The position numbers and the translations under genes were made by a program. Below, one piece after another: positions 43,538 through 58,052 of a stretch of DNA of 64,000 bases. Numbering within the stretch: the first letter of the stretch is position 1; every line of letters starts with the position of its first letter. Location: assembly GCA_001534745.1 (NCBI GenBank), contig CP013997.1, positions 3,038,001 to 3,102,000 of the forward strand, read 5' to 3'. The DNA comes from Pseudomonas monteilii (GTDB lineage: Bacteria; Pseudomonadota; Gammaproteobacteria; Pseudomonadales; Pseudomonadaceae). Under the pieces are notes generated by a model. It was not told where the DNA came from. It did no database searches and saw only the letters and a list, made by a program, of their open reading frames with translations.

Positions 43538-43795
43538 GTCGAGCATCCTTTCGATCGGGTGGGCAGGTTGTGCTGGAGACAGCATAAAGCAGGGCCGGCC
43601 TGGTTGCCTATGGCAAGAGGCGGTGGTGAGGGGAATGGGGTCTGGGCGGTTGGGGTGCAGGTTTGCCTGACGTGCCGGGGTGGCTGACTTCATGGGCCCT
43701 GCGGGCCCAATCGCGGCACAGGGGCCGCTCCTACAGGAACCGTGAGCTGGTCTAATGGCCCCGGACACCTCAATAGGTGAAACTACCCCTACTGA

Positions 43796-44952
<1,157 letters not shown>

Positions 44953-44988
44953 AAATCACCGATCAAGGTGTCCGGAAAAAGTTGACCA

Positions 44989-45321
44989 CCGCACCGCGAC
45001 GGCCTGCCATGCCACGATGGGGTTATGGGTGAGCGGTCTTGTGCCGCGATTGGACCCGCCAGGGCCCACATTAGCACTTGGTAGAAACACTAGAATCTCC
45101 CACAGGAACCGCGATGGCCTACCACGCCGCGGTGGTGCTACGGGTGTAGGAGCGGCCCCAGTGCCGCGATTGGGCCCGCCAGGGCCCACATTAGCAATTG
45201 GCAGAAACCACAAAAATCTCCCACAGGAACCGCAATGGCCTGCATCGCTGCGGTGGGGCTACGGGTGGAGCGGCCCCTGTGCCGCGACCGGACGGCGTAC
45301 CGTCCGGTCATGCCCATACGC
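44989..45321. repeat. Tandem 120-bp REP-like repeat downstream of the aceE paralogue
   Basis: The gap between the IS and the E1 gene holds about two and a half units. CCGCCAGGGCCCACATTAGCA begins at 45057 and again at 45177, exactly 120 bases apart, each preceded by TGCCGCGATTGG and followed by CCCACAGGAACCGC. Sequence left of the IS (CTACAGGAACCG at 43731-43742) belongs to the same repeat type. No gene is seen here. Confidence 0.85.
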
Positions 45322-47991
45322 TCAGACCGTGATCGGGTCGACCTTGTCCGCGTCGATCTGCAGGTCGGCCAGGGCCTTGGCCACGACGTCGCGGCCGATG
45401 GCACCGTCGTCGGCCAGGGCCTTCAAGGCCGCCAGCACCACGAACTGCCGGTCCACTTCGAAGTGCCGACGCAGCGCTTCGCGGGTGTCCGACTGACCGA
45501 AACCGTCGGTGCCCAAGGCCACGAAACGGTGGTTGCCGATCCATGGACGGATCTGGTCGGCGTGGATCTTCATGTAGTCGGTCGCCACGATCACCGGCCC
45601 CGGGTGCCCGTCCAGCAGTTGGGTCAGATACGGTACCCTCGGCTCGTCCAGCGGGTGCAGCAGGTTCCAGCGCTCGACCTGCTGCGCCTCGCGGCGGACC
45701 TCGGTCAGGCTGGTCGCGCTCCACAGCTCGCTGCTGACCCCGTACTCGCGCTCGAGGATCTCGGCCGCGGCGATCACCTCCGGCAGGATCGAGCCGCTGC
45801 CCATCAGTTGCACGTGCAGCGCGCCTTTCGCTTCGCGCTCGATCGGCAGTCGGTACAGCCCTTTGAGAATGCCCTGCTCGCTGCCTTCAGGCATCGCTGG
45901 GTGGGCGTAGTTCTCGTTGAGCACGGTGATGTAGTAGTAGATGTCTTCCTGCTCGACGTACATGCGCCGCATGCCGTCCTGCACGATCACCGCCAGCTCG
46001 TAGGCGTAGGTCGGGTCGTAGGACACGCAGCACGGCACGGTCGCCGACATCACGTGGCTGTGGCCATCGTCATGCTGCAGGCCTTCGCCCATCAGCGTGG
46101 TACGGCCCGAGGTGGCCCCCAGCAGGAAGCCGCGGGCGCGGGCATCGCCGGCCGCCCAGAGCAGGTCGCCCACGCGCTGGAAGCCGAACATCGAATAGAA
46201 GATGTAGAACGGCAGGGTCATCACGCCGTGGTTGGCGTACGACGTGCTCGCGGCGATCCAGGACGAGGTGGCACCGGATTCGTTGAGGCCTTCCTGCATG
46301 ATCTGGCCGTCCACGCTTTCCTTGTAGTAGGACAGGGTGCCAGCGTCCTGGGGCGTGTACAGCTGCCCGACGTGGGAGTGGATGCCGATCTGGCGGAACA
46401 GCCCTTCCATGCCGAAGGTCCGGGACTCGTCCGGGACGATGGGCACCACCAGCTTGCCGATGTTCGGGTCCTTGAGCAGGGTGCCGAGGATGCGCACGAA
46501 GGCCATGGTGGTGGAGATCTCGCGCTCCCCGGTGCCTTTGAGCTGCGCGTCGAGGATCGACAGCGGCGGGATCTGCAGCGGCTCGACCTTGGCCTGGCGC
46601 GCGGGCACGTGCCCACCCAGGGCGTCACGGCGGCTGCGCAGGTAGCGGGCCTCGGCGCTGTCGTCCTTGGGCCGCAGGTAGGGCATGTCGCCCAGCTGAT
46701 CGTCGGTCAGTTCCAGGCCGAAACGGTCGCGGAACGCCTTGACCGCGTCGGCGCCCATCTTCTTGAGCTGGTGGTTGATGTTCTGCCCTTCGCCCGCCTC
46801 GCCCATGCCGAAGCCCTTGACGGTCTTGGCCAGGATCACCGTGGGGCGGCCCGTGTGACGGACGGCGGCGGCGTAGGCGTTGTACACCTTGACCGGGTCG
46901 TGACCGCCACGGGCGAGCTTCCAGATCTGTTCGTCGCTGAGGTCGCTGACCAGCTCCAGCAGCTCAGGGTACTTGCCGAAGAACTGCTCGCGGACGTAAG
47001 CGCCGTTCTGCGACTTGTAGGTCTGGTACTCGCCGTCGACGCACTCCATCATGCGCTGGCGCAGCAGTCCGGTCTTGTCCTTGGCCAGCAGTGCATCCCA
47101 GCCACTGCCCCAGATCACCTTGATCACGTTCCAGCCGGCGGCCCGGTACAGGCTTTCGAACTCCTGGATGACCTTGCCGTTGCCACGCACCGGACCGTCC
47201 AGGCGCTGCAGGTTGCAGTTGACCACGAAGATCAGATTGTCGAGCTTCTCGCGCCCGGCCAGGGAGATTGCCGCCAGCGACTCGGGCTGGTCCATCTCGC
47301 CATCGCCGAGGAAGGCCCAGACCTTGCGGCCCTGGTGCTCCTTGAGGCCGCGGTTTTCCAGGTAGCGCATGAAGCGCGCCTGGTAGGCGGCGGTGATCGG
47401 CCCCAGGCCCATGGAAACGGTGGGGAACTGCCAGAAGTCCGGCATCAGGCGCGGATGCGGGTAGGACGAGATGCCGTCGCGGTCCGTCTCGCGGCGGAAG
47501 TTGTCCAGTTGCTCCTCGCTCAAGCGGCCTTCGGTGTAGGCGCGCCCGTAGATGCCTGGGGCGGAGTGGCCCTGGATGTACACCATGTCGCCCGCGAACT
47601 GCTCGGTGCGTCCCCGGAAGAAGTGATCGAAACCGACGTCGTAGAGCACGGCGGCCGAGGCATAGGTGGCGATGTGGCCGCCGACGCCCGAGTGCTTGCC
47701 GGCACGCAACACCATGGTCAGGGCGTTCCAGCGGATGTAGGCGTTCAGACGGGTTTCCACGCCCAGGTCGCCGGGGTATGGCAGCTCACGTTCGGGCGCG
47801 ATGCTGTTGATGTAGGGGGTGGTGACCCGCCCGTGGAAATCGCCGTGCAGGGAGACATCGAAATCGAGCAGCTGGTCGATGAGGAAGTGGGCCCTTGGCC
47901 GTCCTTCGACTTCCACCACCGATGCGATCGAGTCGATCCATTCGCGGGTTTCCTGGGGGTCTTCATCGCGAAGCGGGTAGCTCTGCGCCAT
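45322..47991 (-). CDS. Pyruvate dehydrogenase E1 component, homodimeric type (aceE paralogue)
   Basis: 889 residues, full length for AceE. The TPP motif GDGEMDQPESLAAISLAGRE...NCNLQRLDGPV and the C-terminal transketolase domain (YVEQEDIYYYITVLNENYAHP, GSGSILPEVIAAAEIL) are intact. It decarboxylates pyruvate, or another 2-oxoacid such as 2-oxobutyrate (as in MdeB of P. putida). No E2 or E3 gene is adjacent, so it is a paralogue of the housekeeping aceE and would need to borrow E2/E3. AAGGAGAG precedes the ATG. It diverges from a MarR gene; two copies of a 12-bp palindrome flank the shared promoter region. Confidence 0.9.
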   Translation of the reverse strand: MAQSYPLRDEDPQETREWIDSIASVVEVEGRPRAHFLIDQLLDFDVSLHGDFHGRVTTPYINSIAPERELPYPGDLGVETRLNAYIRWNALTMVLRAGKHSGVGGHIATYASAAVLYDVGFDHFFRGRTEQFAGDMVYIQGHSAPGIYGRAYTEGRLSEEQLDNFRRETDRDGISSYPHPRLMPDFWQFPTVSMGLGPITAAYQARFMRYLENRGLKEHQGRKVWAFLGDGEMDQPESLAAISLAGREKLDNLIFVVNCNLQRLDGPVRGNGKVIQEFESLYRAAGWNVIKVIWGSGWDALLAKDKTGLLRQRMMECVDGEYQTYKSQNGAYVREQFFGKYPELLELVSDLSDEQIWKLARGGHDPVKVYNAYAAAVRHTGRPTVILAKTVKGFGMGEAGEGQNINHQLKKMGADAVKAFRDRFGLELTDDQLGDMPYLRPKDDSAEARYLRSRRDALGGHVPARQAKVEPLQIPPLSILDAQLKGTGEREISTTMAFVRILGTLLKDPNIGKLVVPIVPDESRTFGMEGLFRQIGIHSHVGQLYTPQDAGTLSYYKESVDGQIMQEGLNESGATSSWIAASTSYANHGVMTLPFYIFYSMFGFQRVGDLLWAAGDARARGFLLGATSGRTTLMGEGLQHDDGHSHVMSATVPCCVSYDPTYAYELAVIVQDGMRRMYVEQEDIYYYITVLNENYAHPAMPEGSEQGILKGLYRLPIEREAKGALHVQLMGSGSILPEVIAAAEILEREYGVSSELWSATSLTEVRREAQQVERWNLLHPLDEPRVPYLTQLLDGHPGPVIVATDYMKIHADQIRPWIGNHRFVALGTDGFGQSDTREALRRHFEVDRQFVVLAALKALADDGAIGRDVVAKALADLQIDADKVDPITV

Positions 47992-48043
47992 CGGTCACTC
48001 TCCTTGTCTGGCAGCGGCGAATCGTTGTGCGGCTCGCCCTTAG

Positions 48044-48055
48044 TTGCACTTGCAA
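48044..48055. promoter_or_regulatory. Candidate MarR operator 1 (aceE paralogue side)
   Basis: TTGCACTTGCAA, a TTGCA-NN-TGCAA palindrome. It lies 52 bases upstream of the E1 start and adjoins a TTGAAT hexamer that can serve as -35 for the MarR gene (TTGAAT-N16-TATGAT). Confidence 0.65.
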
Positions 48056-48082
48056 TTGAATCTATCCTTATCTGCGTTATGA

Positions 48083-48094
48083 TTGCAACTGCAA
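48083..48094. promoter_or_regulatory. Candidate MarR operator 2 (marR side)
   Basis: TTGCAACTGCAA, same palindrome, centre 39 bases from operator 1. On the reverse strand its TTGCAA forms a -35 with ATAGAT 17 bases on as -10 for the E1 gene. It lies 26 bases before the MarR ATG. Confidence 0.65.
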
Positions 48095-48120
48095 TGAACG
48101 CTCGGCATTTCGGAGACCGC

Positions 48121-48582
48121 ATGCCCCCCTCGCCTGACCTCTGGTACAACTTCATCCGCGCACACCGCTGCCTGATCCGCGAGATCGAACGCCGTCTGGC
48201 CGAGGACAAACTGCCGCCCTACGCCTGGTACGACGCACTGTGGGGCATCGAAAGCGGCCCGGAAGGCAGCCGGCGCATGCACGAACTGGCCGATGTGATG
48301 GCCATCGAGCGCTACAACCTCACCCGGCTGGTGGACCGTCTGGAAAAGGACGGTCTGGTGACGCGGGAAAAGGCCACCGACGACGGGCGTGGTGCCATCG
48401 CGCGCATCACCGACACGGGCCGAACCCTGCGCGCGCGGATGTGGGGCGTCTACAAGCAGGCGGTCGACGAGCTGTTCCTGAGCGAGTTCGACGAGGCGCA
48501 GCGCGACACCGTGGCCTTGGCGCTGGAGCGCGCCATCGGCAATGCACGCGCCAGTCGCCAGCGCCCTCACCCGAGCCGGTAG
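48121..48582 (+). CDS. MarR-family transcriptional regulator
   Basis: 153 residues. Winged-helix core: PPYAWYDALWGIESGPEGSRRMHELADVMAIERYNLTRLVDRLEKDGLVTREKATDDGRGAIARITDTGR, the MarR wing and recognition helix. Long dimerisation helices at both ends. The ATG at 48121 is used because GGAGA precedes it; an ATG at 48094 overlaps the operator. It probably represses itself and the divergent E1 gene, and, from a third operator, the E1-C/gst pair. Its 3' end overlaps the convergent E1-C gene by 16 bases. Confidence 0.88.
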   Translation: MPPSPDLWYNFIRAHRCLIREIERRLAEDKLPPYAWYDALWGIESGPEGSRRMHELADVMAIERYNLTRLVDRLEKDGLVTREKATDDGRGAIARITDTGRTLRARMWGVYKQAVDELFLSEFDEAQRDTVALALERAIGNARASRQRPHPSR

Positions 48583-49637
48583 GCCTCCAGCGCCTCGGCC
48601 ACGCGCTGCTCGCCGATCACACCCTGCCCGGCCAACCCACGCAAGGCGGTCGCCACGATCCAATGCCGATCGAGCCGCTGACCTGGCTCAAGACTGTCGC
48701 AGCCCAGGGCCGTGAACGGCGCCGTGACATAGGCGGCCAGTTGCGCGGCGACGAATTCGGCGTAGCCGGTCACCGCCACGATGGGCGAGGCTGCACCTGC
48801 CAGGCAGGCGTGCAGGTGGCAGCTCGCCGTCACCTTGCCGCGCCCGAAGCGGTTGCGCCGCGCATGACGCTCGGCATCGCGCGCCAGGCGCGTGTAGCTC
48901 GGGCAGCTCCACACCTCGGCGCAGACGCCCCACTGCTCCCGCAGCAAGGCCGCCGCGGCGCGGACTTCGCGCAGCATCAGCCCGGCACCGAGCAGGCGTA
49001 CCCGCGGTGCTTGGGCGTCCTGGGGGCCTGCGTCCAGCCGGTACATGCCCAGGCTGGCCTGGGATCGATCGCACGGCAGCCCATCGCCGGGCTCGTCATG
49101 CAGCGTCAGGTAGTAGAAACCGGGTTTGCCCTCGACGTACAGGTCTTGCAGCGCGCCGGTCAGGATGGCCGAAGCCTCCTCACCGCAGGCCGGGTCGAAC
49201 GGCGTGCACTGACGGTTGGCGGCCAGCCACAGCGGCAGCCAGGGGTGCGCGCCCTTGGCCCAGCGCGAAGGTGCCGATTCGATGTCGTTGAGGATGATGC
49301 CGCGTTCGGCAGTCTGCGCCGTGAGCATCGACAGGTGCGCCGAGGTGGGCGACTGGGTCAGGTAGAACAGCGGGCGTTCGTCGTTGCGTGACTGCTCGCT
49401 GAACCACAAGGGCCAGGCACTGACCGGGCCGGTGCCGGCGGTCTCGTCCATGCGATCGTTGATCACCCACAGACGGTCGCCGGCGGCGGCCGCCTGCTGC
49501 AGGCGCCTGACGGTCTCGGTCACGGTGAACAATGGCGAGGCCTGGGTGCCGTCAAGGGGGTGACGGGCGATGTGGGCGAGGCACGCCTGCGCAGCCGAAC
49601 CGGTACTGGCGGTGTGCCTCAAGTGAAGATGGTCCAT
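48567..49637 (-). CDS. Free-standing C-terminal domain of pyruvate dehydrogenase E1, divergent
   Basis: 356 residues. It aligns by eye with the last ~350 residues of the 889-residue E1 at 45.3 kb: FDPACGEEASAILTGALQDLYVEGKPGFYYLTLHDE against [36 protein letters not shown], and GAGLMLREVRAAAALLREQWGVCAEVWSC against GSGSILPEVIAAAEILEREYGVSSELWSA. It lacks the TPP/GDG domain, yet has its own ribosome-binding site (GAGGAG) and no internal stops, so it is a real gene rather than a recent pseudogene. It cannot be an E1 alone; a regulatory or decoy role is inference only. Confidence 0.8.
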   Translation of the reverse strand: MDHLHLRHTASTGSAAQACLAHIARHPLDGTQASPLFTVTETVRRLQQAAAAGDRLWVINDRMDETAGTGPVSAWPLWFSEQSRNDERPLFYLTQSPTSAHLSMLTAQTAERGIILNDIESAPSRWAKGAHPWLPLWLAANRQCTPFDPACGEEASAILTGALQDLYVEGKPGFYYLTLHDEPGDGLPCDRSQASLGMYRLDAGPQDAQAPRVRLLGAGLMLREVRAAAALLREQWGVCAEVWSCPSYTRLARDAERHARRNRFGRGKVTASCHLHACLAGAASPIVAVTGYAEFVAAQLAAYVTAPFTALGCDSLEPGQRLDRHWIVATALRGLAGQGVIGEQRVAEALEAYRLG

Positions 49638-49669
49638 CCATGAAACTCCTCTGGCTGCCCTTGCAGGAT

Positions 49670-49704
49670 GCATTAGGGATAATGCAGACTCGTTGCAAAT
49701 GCAA
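49670..49704 (-). promoter_or_regulatory. Candidate MarR operator 3 and overlapping promoter of the E1-C gene
   Basis: TTGCAAATGCAA (49693-49704) is the third copy of the TTGCA-NN-TGCAA palindrome. Read leftwards its TTGCAA is a -35 followed after 17 bases by TAATGC (49670-49675), the same operator-in-the-minus-35 layout as at the E1 gene. It also lies 18 bases before the gst ATG. Confidence 0.65.
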
Positions 49705-49722
49705 CCACAAGGATGGAACCTG

Positions 49723-50364
49723 ATGAGCACCGCTGCCCTTTTCCGCCTGTACACCGCCGACACGCCCAACGGCCAGAAAGTCTCCATCGCCCTCGAAGAG
49801 CTGGGCCTGAAGTACGAGCAGATCGACCTCGACCTGGGCAAGAACGAGCAGAAGCAGCCGGACTTCGTCGCGCTCAACCCCAACGGCAAGATCCCGGTGC
49901 TGGTCGATGTGGCACGCCAACGCCCTCTGTTCGAGTCGGCGGTCATCCTCACCTACCTGGCCGACCAGCACGGTAGCCTGGGCGCCGAGGCCGACATGGA
50001 CCGCTGGGTGGTCCAGCAGTGGCTGGCCTTCCAGGTCGGCAGCATCGGCCCGATGCTCGGCCAGCTGTGGTGGTTCCGCCATGGCACGCAGACCGTCAAC
50101 GAACAGGCGCTGGAACGCTACACCAGAGAGTCGCTGCGCTTGTACGGCGTGGTCGAGAGCCAATTGAAACAGCGTCCCTATATAGCGGGTCAGCGCTACA
50201 GCATCGCCGACATCGCGCTGTTCACCTGGCTGCGCACGTTCGATGAACTGCACCTGGACCTCGAGCCCTTCCCGGCCGTACGCGCCTGGCTCGACACGCT
50301 CGAGGCTCGCCCGGCGGTCAAGCGCGGCCTCGAGCGCTCGCGCCACAACGTCACCACGCTGTAA
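49723..50364 (+). CDS. Glutathione S-transferase family protein (Nu-class, YfcG-like)
   Basis: 213 residues. Thioredoxin-like N-domain (FRLYTADTPNGQKVSIALEELGLKYE, NPNGKIPVLVD, FESAVILTYLAD) and helical C-domain (SIADIALFTWLR). The TPNGxKV segment marks the YfcG/YghU Nu class, which shows disulphide reductase and organic-peroxide/conjugating activity. AAGGA precedes the ATG. It diverges from the E1-C gene over one shared operator, and is followed after 30 bases by the LuxR gene, with which it may be co-transcribed. Confidence 0.88.
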   Translation: MSTAALFRLYTADTPNGQKVSIALEELGLKYEQIDLDLGKNEQKQPDFVALNPNGKIPVLVDVARQRPLFESAVILTYLADQHGSLGAEADMDRWVVQQWLAFQVGSIGPMLGQLWWFRHGTQTVNEQALERYTRESLRLYGVVESQLKQRPYIAGQRYSIADIALFTWLRTFDELHLDLEPFPAVRAWLDTLEARPAVKRGLERSRHNVTTL

Positions 50365-50394
50365 TCCTTGTCTGCTTGAAAAGAGGCACCGCGC

Positions 50395-51093
50395 ATGATG
50401 ACGCACACGCCGTTTTTCATCCGGCCCGGCCAGGACCCCAACCTGGCCACCCTTATCCAGCTGCTGCCGTCGGAGATCGATTGCCCGTTCACCTACGGCA
50501 CCCTGGACAAGCGCACCTTGGGCCTGTCGAACTTCCTTTCGAGCTTTCCCATGGCCTGGCAGCGGGACTACTGCCGCCAGGCGCTGTACCGCGTCGACCC
50601 GGTCGTGGCCCATGGGATCGAGAGCGTGGCGCCCTTTTCCTGGCGCGAGGCCTGGCAGCGTCGACGGGTGCACGGTCAGGACGCCTACGATGACCTGATA
50701 CGCGAATGCGCCCTGGAGGATGGCTACACCTTCGTGGTGCACGACCCGCACCAGCGCATGGGTCTGCTCAGCCTGTTCAACCGTGAACGCAACCCGGACT
50801 TCCACGCCGACATACGTCGCGTGGAGGGCGCCCTGCAGCTGGCGCTGGTGGCCTTCCACAGCCAGGTGAATGCGCCACGCACCGAGCCGGTGTCCAGCGA
50901 CCGACCCTTGACGGTGCGCGAGCACACCATCCTGGGCTGGGTCGCCATGGGCAAGTCCTACAGCGAGATCGCCTGCATCTGCGACATCCGCGAACGCACC
51001 GTCAAGTTTCACATGGCCAATGTGGTGCGCAAGCTGGACGTGCACACCGCCAAGCAGGCCGTGTTCGAGGCCTCGCGCCTCGGGCTGGCCTGA
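50395..51093 (+). CDS. LuxR-type quorum-sensing regulator (LuxR solo)
   Basis: 232 residues. The N-terminal autoinducer-binding domain keeps the five-residue set known from TraR/LuxR with the same spacing: W55, Y59, D68, P69, W83, followed by a Gly in EDGYTF. The C-terminal HTH is PLTVREHTILGWVAMGKSYSEIACICDIRERTVKFHMANVVRKLD. This supports acyl-homoserine-lactone binding. No luxI is in the window. AGAGG precedes the ATG. A lux box stands 34 bases after its stop, in the promoter of the following operon, its probable target. Confidence 0.9.
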   Translation: MMTHTPFFIRPGQDPNLATLIQLLPSEIDCPFTYGTLDKRTLGLSNFLSSFPMAWQRDYCRQALYRVDPVVAHGIESVAPFSWREAWQRRRVHGQDAYDDLIRECALEDGYTFVVHDPHQRMGLLSLFNRERNPDFHADIRRVEGALQLALVAFHSQVNAPRTEPVSSDRPLTVREHTILGWVAMGKSYSEIACICDIRERTVKFHMANVVRKLDVHTAKQAVFEASRLGLA

Positions 51094-51126
51094 GTCGGGT
51101 AGCGGTCGGGGCAGCACCAGGCCCTG

Positions 51127-51173
51127 ACCTGTACCTAGGTGCAGTTACACAAACCCACACAGCGCACAATGAT
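51127..51173 (+). promoter_or_regulatory. lux box and overlapping promoter of the rohP operon
   Basis: ACCTGTACCTAGGTGCAGTT (51127-51146) is a 20-bp lux-box-like palindrome (CTG-N10-CAG core, ACCTG-type ends as in lux boxes). TTACAC (51145-51150) overlaps its end and is spaced 17 bases from AATGAT (51168-51173), placing the box centre near -43, as in LuxR class II activation. The rohP ATG follows at 51219. Confidence 0.75.
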
Positions 51174-51218
51174 AAGGGGGCACTACAGGTCTAACCCAAC
51201 AATAAAAGGACTTGCCCC

Positions 51219-52412
51219 ATGTCGCTGTCAGCCCAGCCTGCCCTCTCCCGTGAAACGCCCGTGCTCGAGGACATCACCCAGCACGAGATTTCCGCCCTCA
51301 AGACGCGCCACAACCTCGCCGATGCCCACACCCATCAGCACCAGAGCGCGACCCAGGCCGAGATCGTGCGCCAGCTGCCCCGCCTGTGGGAGCGTGCGCA
51401 GAACCTGACCCAGTACGAAAGCGAGCAGGCGTTCATCAAGGCGTTCTATACCTTCCACGGCCAGCACCATGCGCTCAAGCGCAGCGACGAGATCTACCTG
51501 GTCTACGCGGCGTCGATCGCCATGCACATCACCGCCACCTTCCTGCGCAAGCACGACATGCGCGTGGGCCTGATCGAGCCGTGCTTCGACAACCTGCACG
51601 ACCTGCTCAAGCACATGGAAGTGCCGATGTCGCCGCTGCCCGAGGCCATCCTGGCCGACCCGACCCAGGTCTACCGCCTGCTGGAAAAACACGCCCATGA
51701 TCTGGATGCGGTCTTCCTGGTCGACCCGAACAACCCGACCGGCAGCTCGATGTTCGCCGACGGCCCGGAACCGTTCATCGAGGTCGCCCGCTACTGCCGC
51801 GACCACGGCAAGCTGCTGATCCTGGACTTCTGCTTCGCCTCGTTCCTCAAGGTGGGCAACCGTCAGCGCGTCGATGCCTACGCCATCCTCGACGAGGTGG
51901 GTGTGGACTACATCGTCATGGAAGACACGGGCAAGACCTGGCCGCTGCAGGACACCAAGTGCGCGTCGCTGATGTCCAGCGCCCGCCTGAACCCGGAAAT
52001 CTACAGCATCGTCACCAGCGTGCTGCTCAACGTCTCGCCCTTCATCCTGCAGGTGGTCACCGCCTACATCGAGGACAGCCAGGCCGACGACTTCGCCTCG
52101 GTGCGCGACGTGCTGCAGGCCAACCGCCAGACCGCTCGCGAGTACCTCGACGGCACCCTGCTGCGCTACATCGAGCCGGCCATCGAGACCAGCGTGGCCT
52201 GGTTCGAGATCCAGCGCGAGGACCTGTCCGGTGACGCCCTCCAGGCCTACCTGCTCGAGTACCAGGCCTATGTGCTGCCGGGACGCTACTTCTTCTGGAG
52301 CAATCCCGAGCAAGGTCGTGGCTACGTGCGCCTGGCCCTGGCGCGGGACCCGGACGATTTCCGCGTCGCGATGCAGGTGATCCGCCAGGCGCTGGAGGCT
52401 TACCATGGCTGA
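51219..52412 (+). CDS. rohP: PLP-dependent L-arginine oxidase, MppP/RohP family
   Basis: 397 residues, fold-type I aminotransferase fold. It matches the arginine oxidase group (MppP, RohP) along its length: HNLADAHTHQHQS near the N-terminus (MppP: LNIADGHARQALS), VDPNNPTG, and the PLP lysine K239 in EDTGKTWPLQDTK (MppP: EDTGKLWPTLDLK), then VLLNVSPFIL. In azomycin synthesis RohP oxidises L-arginine with O2 to 4-hydroxy-2-ketoarginine. AAAGGAC precedes the ATG. First gene of an operon of overlapping genes. A plain aminotransferase is unlikely given these signatures. Confidence 0.85.
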   Translation: MSLSAQPALSRETPVLEDITQHEISALKTRHNLADAHTHQHQSATQAEIVRQLPRLWERAQNLTQYESEQAFIKAFYTFHGQHHALKRSDEIYLVYAASIAMHITATFLRKHDMRVGLIEPCFDNLHDLLKHMEVPMSPLPEAILADPTQVYRLLEKHAHDLDAVFLVDPNNPTGSSMFADGPEPFIEVARYCRDHGKLLILDFCFASFLKVGNRQRVDAYAILDEVGVDYIVMEDTGKTWPLQDTKCASLMSSARLNPEIYSIVTSVLLNVSPFILQVVTAYIEDSQADDFASVRDVLQANRQTAREYLDGTLLRYIEPAIETSVAWFEIQREDLSGDALQAYLLEYQAYVLPGRYFFWSNPEQGRGYVRLALARDPDDFRVAMQVIRQALEAYHG

Positions 52413-52917
52413 GCGCATTCCCCTCATCGACGCCACGGTCTTCATGGGCATGCACCATGAGGACCCGGACCTTCGCGCCCGCACCCTGGCGTTCTTCACC
52501 GAGCGCTATGACGGCCAGGTGTGGATGAATTTCAGCCAGATCGGCCTGTGCGACGCGATCATCTGGAAAAAGGACCGCGCCTTGCAGGATGTGTACTACC
52601 CCTTCATGGACGTACTGCACTCGGACATGGACATCGTGCGCGTGGGCTACAGCGAGGCCGTGCTCGAACGTGCCGCCAACGACCCGGCCCTGACGATGCT
52701 CTCGCCCGTACAGCGCCTCCAGGCGGCGCAGGTCCTGGAGACCGAGTCGCCCTTCTACACCCACGACACCGACTACGCACGCTGCGACGTGCTGCGGCCC
52801 TTCCTCGCGCACTTCGACGACGCGCCCAGCACCCGTGGCTTCCCAGCGCCGCTGCAGGCGCTGTACCAGGCCTCGTTGGCCTTGCGCATCGCCGCGGAGG
52901 ACTTTCACGATGTCTAG
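52405..52917 (+). CDS. rohQ: PIN-like (DUF6190-type) protein, putative RohQ cyclodehydratase
   Basis: 170 residues. PIN-like layout: LIDATVFMG at the N-terminus and FYTHDTDY near the C-terminus supply the acidic residues, with VWMNFSQIGLCDAIIW between. It overlaps the rohP stop and rohR start by 8 bases each. In the azomycin pathway the step between the aldolase and the N-oxygenase, closing guanidinoacetaldehyde to 2-aminoimidazole, is done by RohQ; assignment here is by operon position and absence of another candidate, not by a motif I can prove. A nuclease toxin is unlikely in this context. Confidence 0.65.
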   Translation: MAERIPLIDATVFMGMHHEDPDLRARTLAFFTERYDGQVWMNFSQIGLCDAIIWKKDRALQDVYYPFMDVLHSDMDIVRVGYSEAVLERAANDPALTMLSPVQRLQAAQVLETESPFYTHDTDYARCDVLRPFLAHFDDAPSTRGFPAPLQALYQASLALRIAAEDFHDV

Positions 52918-53710
52918 CCCGAGCGTACTGGTGCCCCTGGTGACCCCGCTCGACACCCAGGGCAACGTCTGCCGGCAGAGCGTGGAACGGCTGATCCGTG
53001 CGTGCAGCCCGCACGTCGACGGTTTCATTCCCTGCCTGACCTCCGGCGAAGGCTGGAGCCTGTCGACCGAGCAGTGGTCGGACATGCTCCGCCATACCCT
53101 GGCCTGCGCAGGCGCCACGCACCGCGTCATCGTCGGTATCGAACTGGCCACGACCGAGGCGGTGATCGAACGCGCCGCCCTGGCGGCCGAACTGGGCGCC
53201 CAGGCGATCATGGTCACCTCGCCCTTCGGCGGCCGACTGGACCAGCCGGCGCTGGTGGCGCACTACCGCGCCATCCAGGCCGCTTCGGACTTGGAACTGC
53301 TGGTCTACAACGAAGCGGCGCTATCGGGAAACGAAAAATCCCTCGAGACGCTGCTAGCGATCGCGCGTCTGCCGCGCGTCACCGGCCTGAAGGATTCGCC
53401 CTCCGCGCCACGCACCCAGGCGCAGATCGACCAGCTCCGCCAGGCCGGCCTGGCCTACTACATCGGTTGGGAAAAGGACCTGGCAGGCGAGCACGTCAGC
53501 GACGGCAACGTCGTGTCGCTGGCCAACCTGGAACCTGCGCTGTGCCGGATGGCCTGTCAGCCACGACAGCCCCAGGTGGCCACGCAGATCGGCCGTCTGG
53601 ACGAGCTGTTTTCCCTGGGCGAAGACGACTGGTACGCGCACGTGAAGCGGGAATTGTCGGCCCGCGGCGTACTGGACTGTGCACTGACCACACAGGAGCG
53701 ACGCACATGA
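52910..53710 (+). CDS. rohR: DapA/NAL-family aldolase, RohR-like
   Basis: 266 residues, TIM-barrel of the dihydrodipicolinate synthase family. The Schiff-base lysine K161 (VTGLKDSP) and Y133 (LLVYNEA) fall at exactly the E. coli DapA numbers, and SGEGWSLS replaces GTTGE near the N-terminus. Shorter than DapA (292) and not needed for lysine synthesis here. RohR in azomycin synthesis cleaves 4-hydroxy-2-ketoarginine to guanidinoacetaldehyde and pyruvate by a retro-aldol reaction, which these residues allow. ATGA overlap with rohS. Confidence 0.8.
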   Translation: MSSPSVLVPLVTPLDTQGNVCRQSVERLIRACSPHVDGFIPCLTSGEGWSLSTEQWSDMLRHTLACAGATHRVIVGIELATTEAVIERAALAAELGAQAIMVTSPFGGRLDQPALVAHYRAIQAASDLELLVYNEAALSGNEKSLETLLAIARLPRVTGLKDSPSAPRTQAQIDQLRQAGLAYYIGWEKDLAGEHVSDGNVVSLANLEPALCRMACQPRQPQVATQIGRLDELFSLGEDDWYAHVKRELSARGVLDCALTTQERRT

Positions 53711-54555
53711 CTGTTTCGCAGAAAGCCTTGTTTCGCGCCAACCGCGCGCACATCGAACACCTCACCCCTGTCCCGGCGCAGCTGCTGGAGTTCGAGCGAC
53801 GCTGGATCGACACCGCCATCGCCGAGAACCTGACCGAGCAGCAGCCGGCCTCGCTCAGCGAGCTGCGGCGCATGCTCGACGCCCTGGTGGCGCAGGACAA
53901 GGCCGACGAGCCGCCGACCGCACGGTATGTGGCCAACGACATGACCCGCGACGAGTTCAAGATCCTGGTCCAGGAATTCGCCCTCGACGGGCTGACCGAG
54001 GCGCAGGTGTTCTACCACCTGATGCCGCGCCTGAGCCTGTCGGCGCAGATGCCGATGCTGCGCATGATGATCGACGAGTTCGGCTCGGGGAACATCAAGC
54101 GCTCGCACACCACCCTGTACCAGGTGCTGCTCGAAGAGCTGGGCCTGCCAACCGACCTGGAAAGCCATATCCAGGCCAATGGCGAGGCGGGCTGCTCGTT
54201 CCCCAACATGTTCTGCTGGCTGACCATGCGCGCCGACGATCCGTCTTACTTCGCCGGGGTGATCACCTACTTCGAGACGGTGGTGCCGTTCTTCTTCGGC
54301 TGCTACACCGCCGCCTGCGAACGCCTGGCCATCGAGGCGCACCTGTACTACAGCGAGCACGTGCACATCGACGTGTTCCATGCCATGGAGGGTCAGCGCC
54401 TGCTCAAGGCCATGGACAACGACGGCCAGCTCGACCCGGTCAAGGCCTGGCAGGGCATCTGCATGGGCCGGGCGATCACCAACCATGCCTTCGACGAGGC
54501 GGTGTACAAGGCCCAGGCCAGCCGCCAGCCGACCCGGGAGCCTGCCCATGCATGA
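53707..54555 (+). CDS. rohS: Haem-oxygenase-like diiron oxidase, RohS-like N-oxygenase
   Basis: 282 residues, all helical. HDO signature: LRMMIDEFGSGNIKRSHTTLY with D123-E124 and H134, and later ERLAIEAHLYYSEHVHIDVFH, giving the Glu/His metal ligands of the haem-oxygenase-like diiron family. The known azomycin enzyme RohS oxidises the amine of 2-aminoimidazole to the nitro group. Other members of the family make N-oxides or olefins, so the exact product is inferred from the operon. AGGAGCGACGC precedes the ATG; it overlaps the Rieske gene by 8 bases. Confidence 0.8.
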   Translation: MTVSQKALFRANRAHIEHLTPVPAQLLEFERRWIDTAIAENLTEQQPASLSELRRMLDALVAQDKADEPPTARYVANDMTRDEFKILVQEFALDGLTEAQVFYHLMPRLSLSAQMPMLRMMIDEFGSGNIKRSHTTLYQVLLEELGLPTDLESHIQANGEAGCSFPNMFCWLTMRADDPSYFAGVITYFETVVPFFFGCYTAACERLAIEAHLYYSEHVHIDVFHAMEGQRLLKAMDNDGQLDPVKAWQGICMGRAITNHAFDEAVYKAQASRQPTREPAHA

Positions 54556-54787
54556 AGACGCCGAGCTGGCCCTGCGCCCGCCGACCTTCACCGTGCAGGT
54601 CGGCCAGGACGCCTACGAAGTCTCGAGCCTGTGCCCCCATCGCCAGGGCTGGCTGGAGCATGGCACCGTCAACGCCCACCGCCGCACCATCATGTGCCCG
54701 CTGCACTTCTCGGTGTTCAGCCTGGAGTCCGGCGAGCAGCTGACCGGCCCGCCGTGCGGCAACATCCGTTCACGCAAGCTCACCTGA
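54548..54787 (+). CDS. Small Rieske-type [2Fe-2S] protein
   Basis: 79 residues, a bare Rieske domain: C29-P-H31 (SLCPHRQGW) and C50-PL-H53 (IMCPLHFSVF) are the four cluster ligands. No membrane anchor or reductase domain. Placed last in the roh-like operon, overlapping rohS by 8 bases, it is the likely electron donor for the diiron N-oxygenase; this role is inferred from position. Confidence 0.85.
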   Translation: MHEDAELALRPPTFTVQVGQDAYEVSSLCPHRQGWLEHGTVNAHRRTIMCPLHFSVFSLESGEQLTGPPCGNIRSRKLT

Positions 54788-54862
54788 GGGATCTGCGCCG
54801 GACCTTTCCTACAGGCCTGGCGCTTCGTCCGAGCACGCCCGCGACCCTCTGCCGCTTCGATT

Positions 54863-56152
54863 TCAATGCGGGTGAAGATCGAAGGTCGTGGCCGCTAGCG
54901 CCTTCAACTGGTCCTTCTCGCGTTGCAGTATCAACGCGCGTTCCGCATGGGCCAGCAGCAGTTCGGCCTGCCGGGCGCAGGCTGCCTTGAACAGGGGCGG
55001 GTTGATCTGCGACAGGCTGATCAGCGCCTTCAGCAGGCGCAGGTCGATTTCCAGCAAGCCGCCACCGTCGCGGCTCAGCGGCGCGAAGAAGTCATCGAAC
55101 AGGTCATCGACGTGCAGGCCGCGCACGTACACCTGGTCGCATCCCGGCTCCCTTTGCTCCGTCAGCGCCTGGGGCTTGCCCCAGCAGGCCAGGGTCCTAA
55201 CCCCGCGCCCGATCACGTCGATGGCCGTGCCAGGGTCGTTGGTGGCGGACGACAGCGCACGCGAGGCGATCTCCGACAGCACCGAAATGCCGAAGCGTGG
55301 GTCATGCTCGAACGTGCGGCGAAGGCCGATGGTCAGGGCCCCGCGTATGCGCTCCACGGTCTTTTCATCGTCCCACGTGGTCGCGTCGTCCAAGGGCACC
55401 AGACGAGCCAGGGGCAGGCCTTCGTGGACGAAGCTGCCCGGCAGCACCTCCAGGTAGATCCGCAGCCCCTTGTCCAGGGCGAGGGCGCCCAGGGCCTGCA
55501 CGTCGATGTGCTGCACATAGCCGGTCTGAAGGCTGGCCAGGGAACGGGCCGTGGCCGGCACCACCAGTTCGGCGGGGTACGCCACGGCCCCCAGGTACGG
55601 CCAGCGGGCGCGCTGACCGAGCGAATGCATGGCCGCGGCCTCGACCCGGTCGATGGTCTCGCCGACCCGACCGAGCTTGGACAGGTGGTCGATCCAGCGC
55701 AGCAAGGTGTAGACGATCAGCAGGATCACCGCCAGGGTCACCACGAACAGCAGCGCCCTTCCCTGCGAACCATACACACCGGTGCTCAGGGCGATGATGC
55801 CGACCAGGCTGAACAGGAACGAGCCGATGAAGGTGGCCAGCGCGTTCTGGGTGGCGCTGTCCTCCATGATCAAAGTGGTGGCGCGTGGAGTCACACCGCT
55901 GCTGGCAGCGCTGTAGGCGCTGACCATGGTGCTCAGCGAAAAGGTGGTCACCGCGAGCATGCTCGAGGCGATGATGCCGAGGATCTTGTCTACTGCATCG
56001 GCGCCGATGCGCGTGGGCAGCGAAGCCGGGATCAGGTCCTTGAAGACCACCGCCAGCAGGGCCGTGACCACGCCGAGCAACGAAAACAGCGTCGCCCGGA
56101 ACCACAAGCGTTTGGTGATGCGACTCAGTATCCAGCGCCAACGGGCGATCAT
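54863..56152 (-). CDS. DUF2254 membrane protein
   Basis: 429 residues. Four N-terminal membrane segments ([51 protein letters not shown] and [16 protein letters not shown]) precede a cytosolic domain with [14 protein letters not shown] and [31 protein letters not shown], all typical of DUF2254. Function is unknown. The [13 protein letters not shown] is chosen; longer in-frame sequence upstream is not conserved. It is convergent with the roh operon and divergent from nhaA. Confidence 0.85.
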
Positions 56153-56338
56153 GCAGGCGTCTCCAAGAGCTCCGATTGCTCGATTGAGCCGAACGTGGGC
56201 CGTTTCGTTCACTCCCGTGGGCCGATCGTTTGCATCGGCTGGCGCTGCCCCTTTATCATCGCCGCGGGTGCGTGGCGGCATGGGGCCGAGCGCAGGTTAA
56301 AGTTGACGCATTGGTCGGGCCGCCAATGGAGACCTGCC

Positions 56339-57709
56339 GTGTCCGATCGAAACCCGACTCCACCCCCGATTCCCCGCCCACAGATCCTCACCGAACGCGC
56401 CCTTTCGGCCGTGGAACGCTTCTTCCACATCGAGGCCGTCAGCGGCATCGTCCTGCTGCTGGCCGCCATCGCCGCGCTGATCTGGGCCAACAGCCCGGCC
56501 GCCGACAGCTACGAACACTTCTGGCACACCCAGGTCACCTTGGGCATCGGCGCCTATTCGGTCTCGCCGTCGCTGCACTTTCTGGTCAACGACGGGCTGA
56601 TGACGATCTTCTTCCTGGTGGTCGGCGCGGAGATTCGCCAGGAAATCAAGGACGGCGCCCTGGCCAACCTGCGCCTGGCGACCCTGCCGCTCGGCGCCGC
56701 CCTGGGCGGTGTGCTGATGCCCGCCGCGCTCTACCTGGCGTTCAACCATGGCAGCGTGGCCAGCACCGGCTGGGCCGTGCCCACCGCCACCGACATCGCC
56801 TTCGCCGTCGGCGTGCTGGCCCTGCTGGGCAAGTCGATCCCCAGTGGCGTGCGGGTCCTGCTGCTGGCCCTGGCGATCATCGACGACATCGTCGCGATTC
56901 TGATCATCGCGGTGTTCTACACCGCCAGCCTGGATTACCTCGGCCTGGTCGTCGCCGCGGCAGGCGTGCTGCTGGTCCTGGTGCTGCAGCGCATGGGTGT
57001 GGGCAAAGCCTACGCCTACATCGTGCCGGGCGCGATCGTCTGGTTCGGCCTGCTCAAGACCGGCGTGCACCCGACCCTGGCCGGCGTGCTGCTGGGCCTG
57101 ATGACGCCAGTGGCCTCCAAGCCGATGACCGAGCGCCCGCTCGACACCCTCCAGCGCACCCTGCATGAACTGGTCGACCGCTTCTCGCACCGAGGCGCCG
57201 ATCCCCAGGCCGTCGCCGAGCCCCTGAAACAGCTGCGCCATGCCCAGCGCGAAGTGCTGCCGCCCGTGCAGCGCGTGCAGATGGGGCTGCACCCCTGGGT
57301 GGCCTACGTCATCATGCCGCTGTTCGCCCTGGCCAATGCCGGCGTCAGCCTGTCGGGCGTCGACCTCAGCGAGTCGGTGTCCCAGCATGTCTTCCTCGGC
57401 GTGATGCTGGCCCTGGTGCTGGGCAAGCCGCTGGGCGTGCTGCTCGCCAGCGTCGTCCTGGTCAAGCTGAAGGTCTGCGCCTTGCCCGAAGGCGTGACCT
57501 GGAGAGGCGTGACCCTGGTCGGCCTGCTGGCGGGGATCGGGTTCACCATGTCGATCTTCATCGCCGCCCTGGCCTTCGCCGACCCGGCCCTGCTGTCGGC
57601 GGCCAAGCTCAGCGTGCTCGCGGCCTCGACCCTGGCTGCCGTACTGGGTGTGTGCTGGGGCAAGGCCACGTTCGGCAAGGCCTACGCCGCTCAGCGACAC
57701 GGGGCGTAA
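56339..57709 (+). CDS. nhaA: Na+/H+ antiporter NhaA
   Basis: 456 residues from a GTG preceded by GGAGA. About 12 membrane segments. The essential Asp pair is in [13 protein letters not shown], with [21 protein letters not shown] before it and [19 protein letters not shown] near the C-terminus. Longer than E. coli NhaA (388) because of a loop around [31 protein letters not shown], as in many pseudomonad NhaA proteins. It exchanges Na+ for H+ for pH and sodium homeostasis. Confidence 0.93.
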
Positions 57710-57872
57710 GGCCCGGCGCCTGGCGGCCTTCCTGGAGAGGGTCGCTGGGCACCTTGGCGTTTTTCCGACAGCGCGCCTACGCAGGCATCAACGAAACGGG
57801 GAAGCTCGCGTATCATGCGCGGCATTGCGCAGGCCTCGACCTGCCGCCCCTCCGATCGATGAGCCGCCCTCC

Positions 57873-58052
57873 ATGAACCGTCAGAAAAAGCTCCAGCAAT
57901 TGTTCAAGGCGAACGCCAAGAAGGCCAGCGCCAAGCTCGCGCCGCGCAACAAGAACCCCTATGTCAGCAAGGCCGACCGGGCGAAGGCTGCCGAAGAAGC
58001 GGCGCAGGCTTCAGCCGAACCGACCGCGCCTGCGTCCGACCTGCACGACTGA
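57873..58052 (+). CDS. DUF2986 family small basic protein
   Basis: 59 residues, MNRQKKLQQLFKANAKKASAKLAPRNKNPYVSKADRAKAAEEA, lysine-rich and predicted disordered/helical, typical of DUF2986 in gamma-proteobacteria. The likely start is the ATG at 57873 with weak ribosome-binding sequence. Function is unknown. Confidence 0.8.
   Translation: MNRQKKLQQLFKANAKKASAKLAPRNKNPYVSKADRAKAAEEAAQASAEPTAPASDLHD

Follow-up and report, generated by a model that had tools for sequence, protein, structure and literature searches.

The analysed window, a stretch of 64,000 nucleotides of the Pseudomonas monteilii genome (assembly GCA_001534745.1, contig CP013997.1, positions 3,038,001-3,102,000; the genome is one contig of 4,714,359 bases), contains five plus-strand genes of the rohPQRST type for the biosynthesis of the antibiotic azomycin (2-nitroimidazole). 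The first gene, rohP (51219-52412), encodes a pyridoxal 5'-phosphate (PLP)-dependent L-arginine oxidase of 397 amino acids with the Schiff-base lysine K239. It is followed by rohQ (52405-52917, 170 amino acids), encoding a cyclodehydratase; rohR (52910-53710, 266 amino acids), encoding a DapA-fold retro-aldolase with the residues K161 and Y133; rohS (53707-54555, 282 amino acids), encoding a haem-oxygenase-like diiron N-oxygenase; and rohT (54548-54787, 79 amino acids), encoding a stand-alone Rieske [2Fe-2S] protein. The neighbouring genes overlap by 8 (rohP/rohQ), 8 (rohQ/rohR), 4 (rohR/rohS) and 8 bases (rohS/rohT), which bears out the five overlapping genes of the preliminary description made from the sequence of the window. 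The residues named there, K239 in the motif TGKTW, K161 and Y133 of the aldolase, and D123, E124 and H134 of the diiron protein, were each located in their protein. Upstream of the operon lies a luxR gene (50395-51093, plus strand), and all six genes are open. Position 51127, between luxR and rohP, marks the beginning of a lux-box-like palindrome; no gene starts there. RohQ (PF19689) was found in 21 of 398 Pseudomonas genomes, the genome of the window included, and in all 21 Pseudomonas roh loci there are matches to all five proteins in the order P-Q-R-S-T. The nearest of the compared loci is L004, labelled Pseudomonas entomophila strain 4A7, which aligns in three long pieces with 91-92% DNA identity.

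The best match of RohP in a phmmer search of the PDB is 6c3a (E 2.4e-120, 405 bits), which is labelled 'Uncharacterized protein' in the search and which we take to be RohP of Streptomyces cattleya. Only four entries match at E <=1e-3; behind 6c3a come MppP, with one entry at 180 bits and another at 177, and 7n79 (172 bits), named just 'Aminotran_1_2 domain-containing protein'; the E-value for MppP 5dj1 is 1e-51. MppP of the enduracididine pathway and GntC of the guanitoxin pathway are PLP enzymes that act on arginine or hydroxyarginine and are related to RohP; however, RohP of the window scores far higher with 6c3a than with MppP or with the NCBIfam model of GntC (55 bits). The partner genes of MppP and GntC differ from roh. 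Against the NCBIfam models of ordinary aminotransferases RohP scores no higher than 43 bits, and a Pfam scan of the protein returned no family at E 1e-3. Judged by score, RohP does not group with ordinary transaminases.

Two solved structures, 9c5w ('Cyclodehydratase RohQ', E 1.3e-55) and 9oq8 ('RohQ', E 2e-55), match the second protein, a proposed PIN-like protein whose similarity to RohQ the preliminary description had left to be checked; in Pfam the protein belongs to DUF6190 alone (205 bits). RohR belongs to the Pfam family DHDPS (E 1.6e-28), and its K161 and Y133 align with those of DapA-family chains, as expected for the proposed DapA-fold aldolase; no entry named RohR is present among the 60 PDB matches listed. 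RohS matches 9pfw (E 6.6e-129) and 9pfx ('PbrRohS', E 1.7e-127), whereas the match to SznF is far weaker (E 3.5e-10). The assignment of RohS as a haem-oxygenase-like diiron protein thus holds, and E98, E217, H218, D222 and H225 accompany the three residues noted before. RohT was correctly recognised as a Rieske protein (Pfam Rieske, E 7.9e-8) and contains the motifs CPH at residues 29-31 and CPLH at 50-53. With three of the five proteins matching solved Roh proteins, and the aldolase and Rieske families fitting the remaining two, gene types and gene order agree with the Roh pathway. On sequence evidence, the E-values of RohP, RohQ and RohS against the PDB and the gene order kept in 21 of 21 loci mean that the operon is not a chance arrangement.

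The named intermediates of the Roh route are 4-hydroxy-2-ketoarginine, guanidinoacetaldehyde with pyruvate, and 2-aminoimidazole. RohP would use PLP and O2 to convert L-arginine to 4-hydroxy-2-ketoarginine, RohR would cleave this compound to guanidinoacetaldehyde and pyruvate, and RohQ would close the ring to give 2-aminoimidazole. The amine of 2-aminoimidazole would then be oxidised to the nitro group of azomycin by the diiron N-oxygenase RohS, with RohT as the likely electron donor. The available text of PMC10724926 outlines the steps of RohP, RohR and RohQ and the oxidation of the nitrogen by a RohS, and the available text of PMC12713392, published in 2025, describes rohPQRST in Pseudomonas and the production of azomycin by strains DF41 and CMR5c. 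According to the latter source, deletion of rohPQRST in Pseudomonas sp. DF41 abolished azomycin. Measured against these two texts, no published pathway step is missing here. The novelty that the preliminary description implied for the operon is not upheld; since rohPQRST has already been published from Pseudomonas, the operon of the window is a further case of a known system, which it extends to one more lineage. The chemistry and the need of roh for azomycin were established in relatives and are expected to apply here by analogy.

The protein encoded by luxR (232 amino acids) contains the Pfam domains Autoind_bind (E 1.5e-25) and GerE (E 1e-15). Its ligand pocket retains W57, Y61, D70, P71, W85 and G113, and the helix-turn-helix retains the conserved E, L and G, so that all nine residues listed for N-acyl-homoserine lactone (AHL)-type LuxR proteins in the available text of PMC3909224 are present. 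Because these residues are kept, the signal is more probably an AHL than a plant compound. The plant-signal type of LuxR (PAB/OryR) was ruled out because W57 and Y61 are kept.

Pseudomonas roh clusters are said always to adjoin luxRI in the available text of PMC12713392. Among the 21 roh-positive Pseudomonas genomes, both luxR and luxI adjoin roh in ten, luxR without an adjoining luxI in nine (G000, which is the genome of the window, G020, G080, G117, G182, G345, G348, G350 and G395), and neither gene in two (G171 and G288). A genome-wide search for LuxI (PF00765) found none in seven of the nine genomes with a solo LuxR, including G000, several of the nine being draft assemblies; in G080 and G395, LuxI is present away from roh. 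It is unlikely that the profile missed the protein, as LuxI was found in 12 of the 21 roh-positive genomes, though 14 control genomes gave none. In a tree of RohP-Q-R-S the nine solo-LuxR loci cluster together, separate from the luxRI group, and none of their LuxR proteins has lost any of the six pocket residues. The solo-LuxR clade corrects the generalisation, as worded in the part of PMC12713392 that is available, that roh always lies beside luxRI; a literature search found no report on a solo LuxR at roh. Given that the LuxI search of this genome was negative, an AHL made by neighbours is the probable signal. The clade appears to tie azomycin to a receptor without its own signal maker, and the antibiotic output may therefore depend on the signals of neighbours.

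The palindrome ACCTGTACCTAGGTGCAGTT at 51127-51146 is a putative LuxR operator, a lux box with a CT-N12-AG core at 51129-51144, whose first base lies 92 bases before the start of rohP. The 16-base core has no second place in the window at up to three mismatches. A lux box is positioned at -91 to -93 from rohP in all nine solo-LuxR loci, and a related site is present in luxRI loci. Of the 19 LuxR-bearing loci, 16 show the CT-N12-AG pattern at the homologous place and the other three (L079, L080 and L050) show TTG...CAG; in the two loci without LuxR, the lux box is absent from the two best palindromes before rohP. A candidate -10 element, AATGAT (51168-51173, plus strand), was picked by eye from sequence and spacing. 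The spacing between the lux box and this element fits class II activation by LuxR. Transcription would most likely start about 40 bases before rohP, and roh would be switched on when the solo LuxR occupies the lux box.

The roh clusters of Streptomyces cattleya and S. eurocidicus, which Hedges and Ryan, cited in both PMC10724926 and PMC12713392, reportedly described in 2019, encode homologous enzymes for the entire route from L-arginine to azomycin. In contrast to the Pseudomonas loci, 21 streptomycete roh loci contain no LuxR match except for a partial match of 33% identity in L170, and in some of them AceE or a DsbA-like protein is encoded nearby instead. Strains DF41 and CMR5c share with the window the five roh genes and a luxR gene close to them; however, luxRI lies beside roh there, in the available account of PMC12713392, whereas the LuxR of the window stands alone. 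The LuxR of the window resembles PsaR1 of P. syringae pv. actinidiae, an AHL-type LuxR solo according to the available text of PMC3909224, in the lack of a LuxI and in the nine retained residues, but differs from solos of this type in that an antibiotic operon, preceded by a conserved lux box, follows it directly.

Gene content, homology, retained residues, the conserved operator-like site and the failure to detect LuxI together indicate that the locus is very probably a complete rohPQRST azomycin operon switched by the neighbouring solo LuxR. Several observations weigh against this interpretation. RohP reaches 157 bits with the NCBIfam model of MppP, below the cut-off of 450, the model having been built for MppP of the enduracididine pathway, and the NCBIfam scan gave no match for RohQ or RohS. 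The solo LuxR proteins share 35-42% identity with the luxRI-type LuxR proteins, whereas RohP is 68-72% identical between the two groups, and it is therefore possible that LuxR was replaced or diverged fast. The activator role of the neighbouring LuxR, its dependence on AHL and its action at the 51127-51146 palindrome are predictions from sequence, and azomycin production by the P. monteilii strain would follow from the gene content. According to the available text of PMC12713392, azomycin could not be detected in cultures of two P. syringae strains that carry the roh cluster, which shows that possession of the genes does not ensure production.

The P. syringae strains and the LuxI not found in this genome would also fit an operon that is complete but silent, with a LuxR that is never activated and a cluster in the course of being lost. 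So would the rohP gene of L066 and L067, both solo-LuxR relatives, which is split into two open pieces of 255 and 210 amino acids by decay or assembly error. Such silence is unlikely, since the nine solo-LuxR loci form one diverged clade that keeps the pocket residues and the position of the lux box, and the five roh genes and luxR are all open in the window. A product other than free azomycin, arising if the pathway halts at 2-aminoimidazole or if azomycin undergoes another modification, perhaps through the product of the glutathione S-transferase (GST)-like gene that adjoins luxR, is quite improbable. Other roh clusters, in two Pseudomonas, one Paraburkholderia and six streptomycete loci, have an added gene for a protein arginine methyltransferase (PRMT)-like methyltransferase, which means that product variants may exist; however, this methyltransferase has no match near the locus of the window, where RohS and RohT are intact with residues of the metal-ligand type. 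Strains DF41 and CMR5c make azomycin itself (available text of PMC12713392), though they are reported with luxRI, the arrangement of the sister lineage. The PRMT-like gene is found at L016:3690-4661 and also in L068, L074, L152-L154, L159, L160 and L165, and these variants may produce a methylated compound.

The solo-LuxR operon is preceded by a module built around aceE2 (45322-47991, minus strand), which encodes a second homodimeric pyruvate dehydrogenase E1 of 889 amino acids (PDB 1l8a, E1, 1160 bits). The gene for a MarR-family regulator (48121-48582, plus strand, 153 amino acids; Pfam MarR_2, E 6.8e-13) is divergent from aceE2. A further gene (48567-49637, minus strand, 356 amino acids) encodes E1-C, which corresponds to the C-terminal part of E1: its residues 136-355 align with AceE2 647-879 (hhalign probability 100, E 1.2e-46), and the part of E1 that binds thiamine diphosphate (ThDP) is unmatched. 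The GST-like gene (49723-50364, plus strand, 213 amino acids; Pfam GST_N/GST_C) has the same direction as luxR and roh; in 14 of the 21 Pseudomonas roh loci it is flanked by the E1-C gene and luxR. The housekeeping AceE is encoded elsewhere in the genome (G000:C1:303309-305948) and is 59% identical to AceE2, which forms a separate clade in the tree. AceE2 keeps the residues at seven compared catalytic places, which follow the numbering of E. coli E1.

AceE2 was scored as present at matches of at least 79%, the next matches, at most 60%, being housekeeping AceE; the counts were taken by eye among the matches listed, with two candidates per genome, and broken copies could be missed. AceE2 is present in at least 76 of the 398 Pseudomonas genomes, comprising at least 19 of the 21 roh-positive and at least 57 of the 377 roh-negative ones (Fisher p 4e-13, ignoring relatedness). 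It is therefore not a roh-only gene. Among the matches listed there is none for the roh-positive genomes G080 and G288. AceE2 adjoins roh in 17 of the 21 loci, upstream in 15 and downstream in two (L065 and L073); in G171 it lies elsewhere in the genome, and in G212 near the end of another contig, the roh contig also ending. Genome G020 matches only positions 47500-54762 of the queried 47500-58000, from within AceE2 to RohT, which gives the module together with roh the look of a single island. The module also exists apart from roh: in 28 additional AceE2 loci, of which roh-negative genomes account for 26, a MarR gene is always adjacent, as is the E1-C gene in 21 (one partial). Recent transfer judged by foreign base composition was dropped as an explanation, since the G+C content from AceE2 to RohT is 66.0%, close to the 65.0% of the window. 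Transposase and integrase-core genes at 43805-44952, which we take to be IS3-like, adjoin the AceE2 module and were not found in the nearest relative, L076; the G+C content of 43700-45100 is 59.5%.

RohQ was found in 19 of 394 Streptomycetaceae, and the neighbours of roh were surveyed in 20 further loci and L017. AceE adjoins roh in six of these 21 streptomycete loci (L155, L156, L158, L163, L167 and L017); none is present beside roh in the remaining 15, where the contig of L164 ends 1.3 kb upstream. Matches to RohS and RohT were not found in L166. A second AceE, at least 73% identical to the L017 copy, is carried by 12 of the 19 roh-positive genomes and by three of 20 roh-negative ones (Fisher p 0.003, ignoring relatedness), the latter being the listed genomes without a RohQ match, with 355 others outside the comparison. 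It adjoins roh in six of the 12 roh-positive carriers. The match spans one in-frame stop in three of the 12 (G486, G725 and G641), and the open reading frames used for the tree all exceed 800 amino acids. In the tree, the second AceE of streptomycetes and AceE2 of Pseudomonas are two different duplicates, and neither groups with the housekeeping AceE of its own lineage. No AceE match was obtained in the two Nocardiopsis genomes with roh; the Paraburkholderia genome with roh carries AceE twice, in both cases outside the 12.5 kb surrounding the cluster.

The presence of AceE2 in roh-negative genomes shows that the gene can exist independently of roh, and it is on balance probable that the module travels as a hitchhiker, sharing a genomic landing place with roh, and is unrelated to azomycin. 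The association counts take no account of relatedness, and most streptomycete roh loci are without an adjoining AceE. Shared active-site changes were rejected as proof of self-resistance: at nine sites, substitutions are common to AceE2 of Pseudomonas and the streptomycete AceE that adjoins roh, compared with 14 in the reverse control, which rests on one Pseudomonas housekeeping sequence, and there is thus no excess. Set against hitchhiking are the carriage of AceE2 by nearly all roh-positive Pseudomonas, beside roh in two arrangements, and the different AceE duplicate beside roh in streptomycetes, where the second copy is again more frequent in roh-positive genomes. This linkage suggests a self-protection or target relation, and, as expected for self-resistance, an extra copy of the enzyme lies by the cluster in addition to the housekeeping one. 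It is conceivable, though doubtful, that aceE2 and the MarR gene, with or without the E1-C gene, form an azomycin self-protection cassette, in which pyruvate dehydrogenase E1 would be the aerobic target or trap of azomycin or its nitroso or hydroxylamino intermediates, possibly via the ThDP-bound carbanion, and a spare E1 would have been kept independently in two phyla. N406 stands beside H407 in all 46 AceE2 rows, which represent 44 genomes because two were entered twice, and in all 16 streptomycete second copies, whereas housekeeping AceE has A or T at this place; as a mark of self-resistance the pattern is only suggestive. A literature search found no paper linking azomycin with pyruvate dehydrogenase as target or in self-protection and none on aceE at roh, and the main text of PMC12713392, as far as it is available, is silent on pyruvate dehydrogenase, aceE and MarR. 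The spare E1 beside roh in two phyla offers a lead on the action of azomycin in air and on the survival of its producers.

Two streptomycete genomes, G800 (L153/L156) and G663 (L154/L158), contain two roh clusters each, one of the AceE type and one of the methyltransferase type. A DsbA-like thioredoxin-fold protein (Pfam DSBA) is encoded near roh in 19 of 24 surveyed loci, for example at the actinobacterial L014:3593-4276, and may be the counterpart of the Pseudomonas GST.

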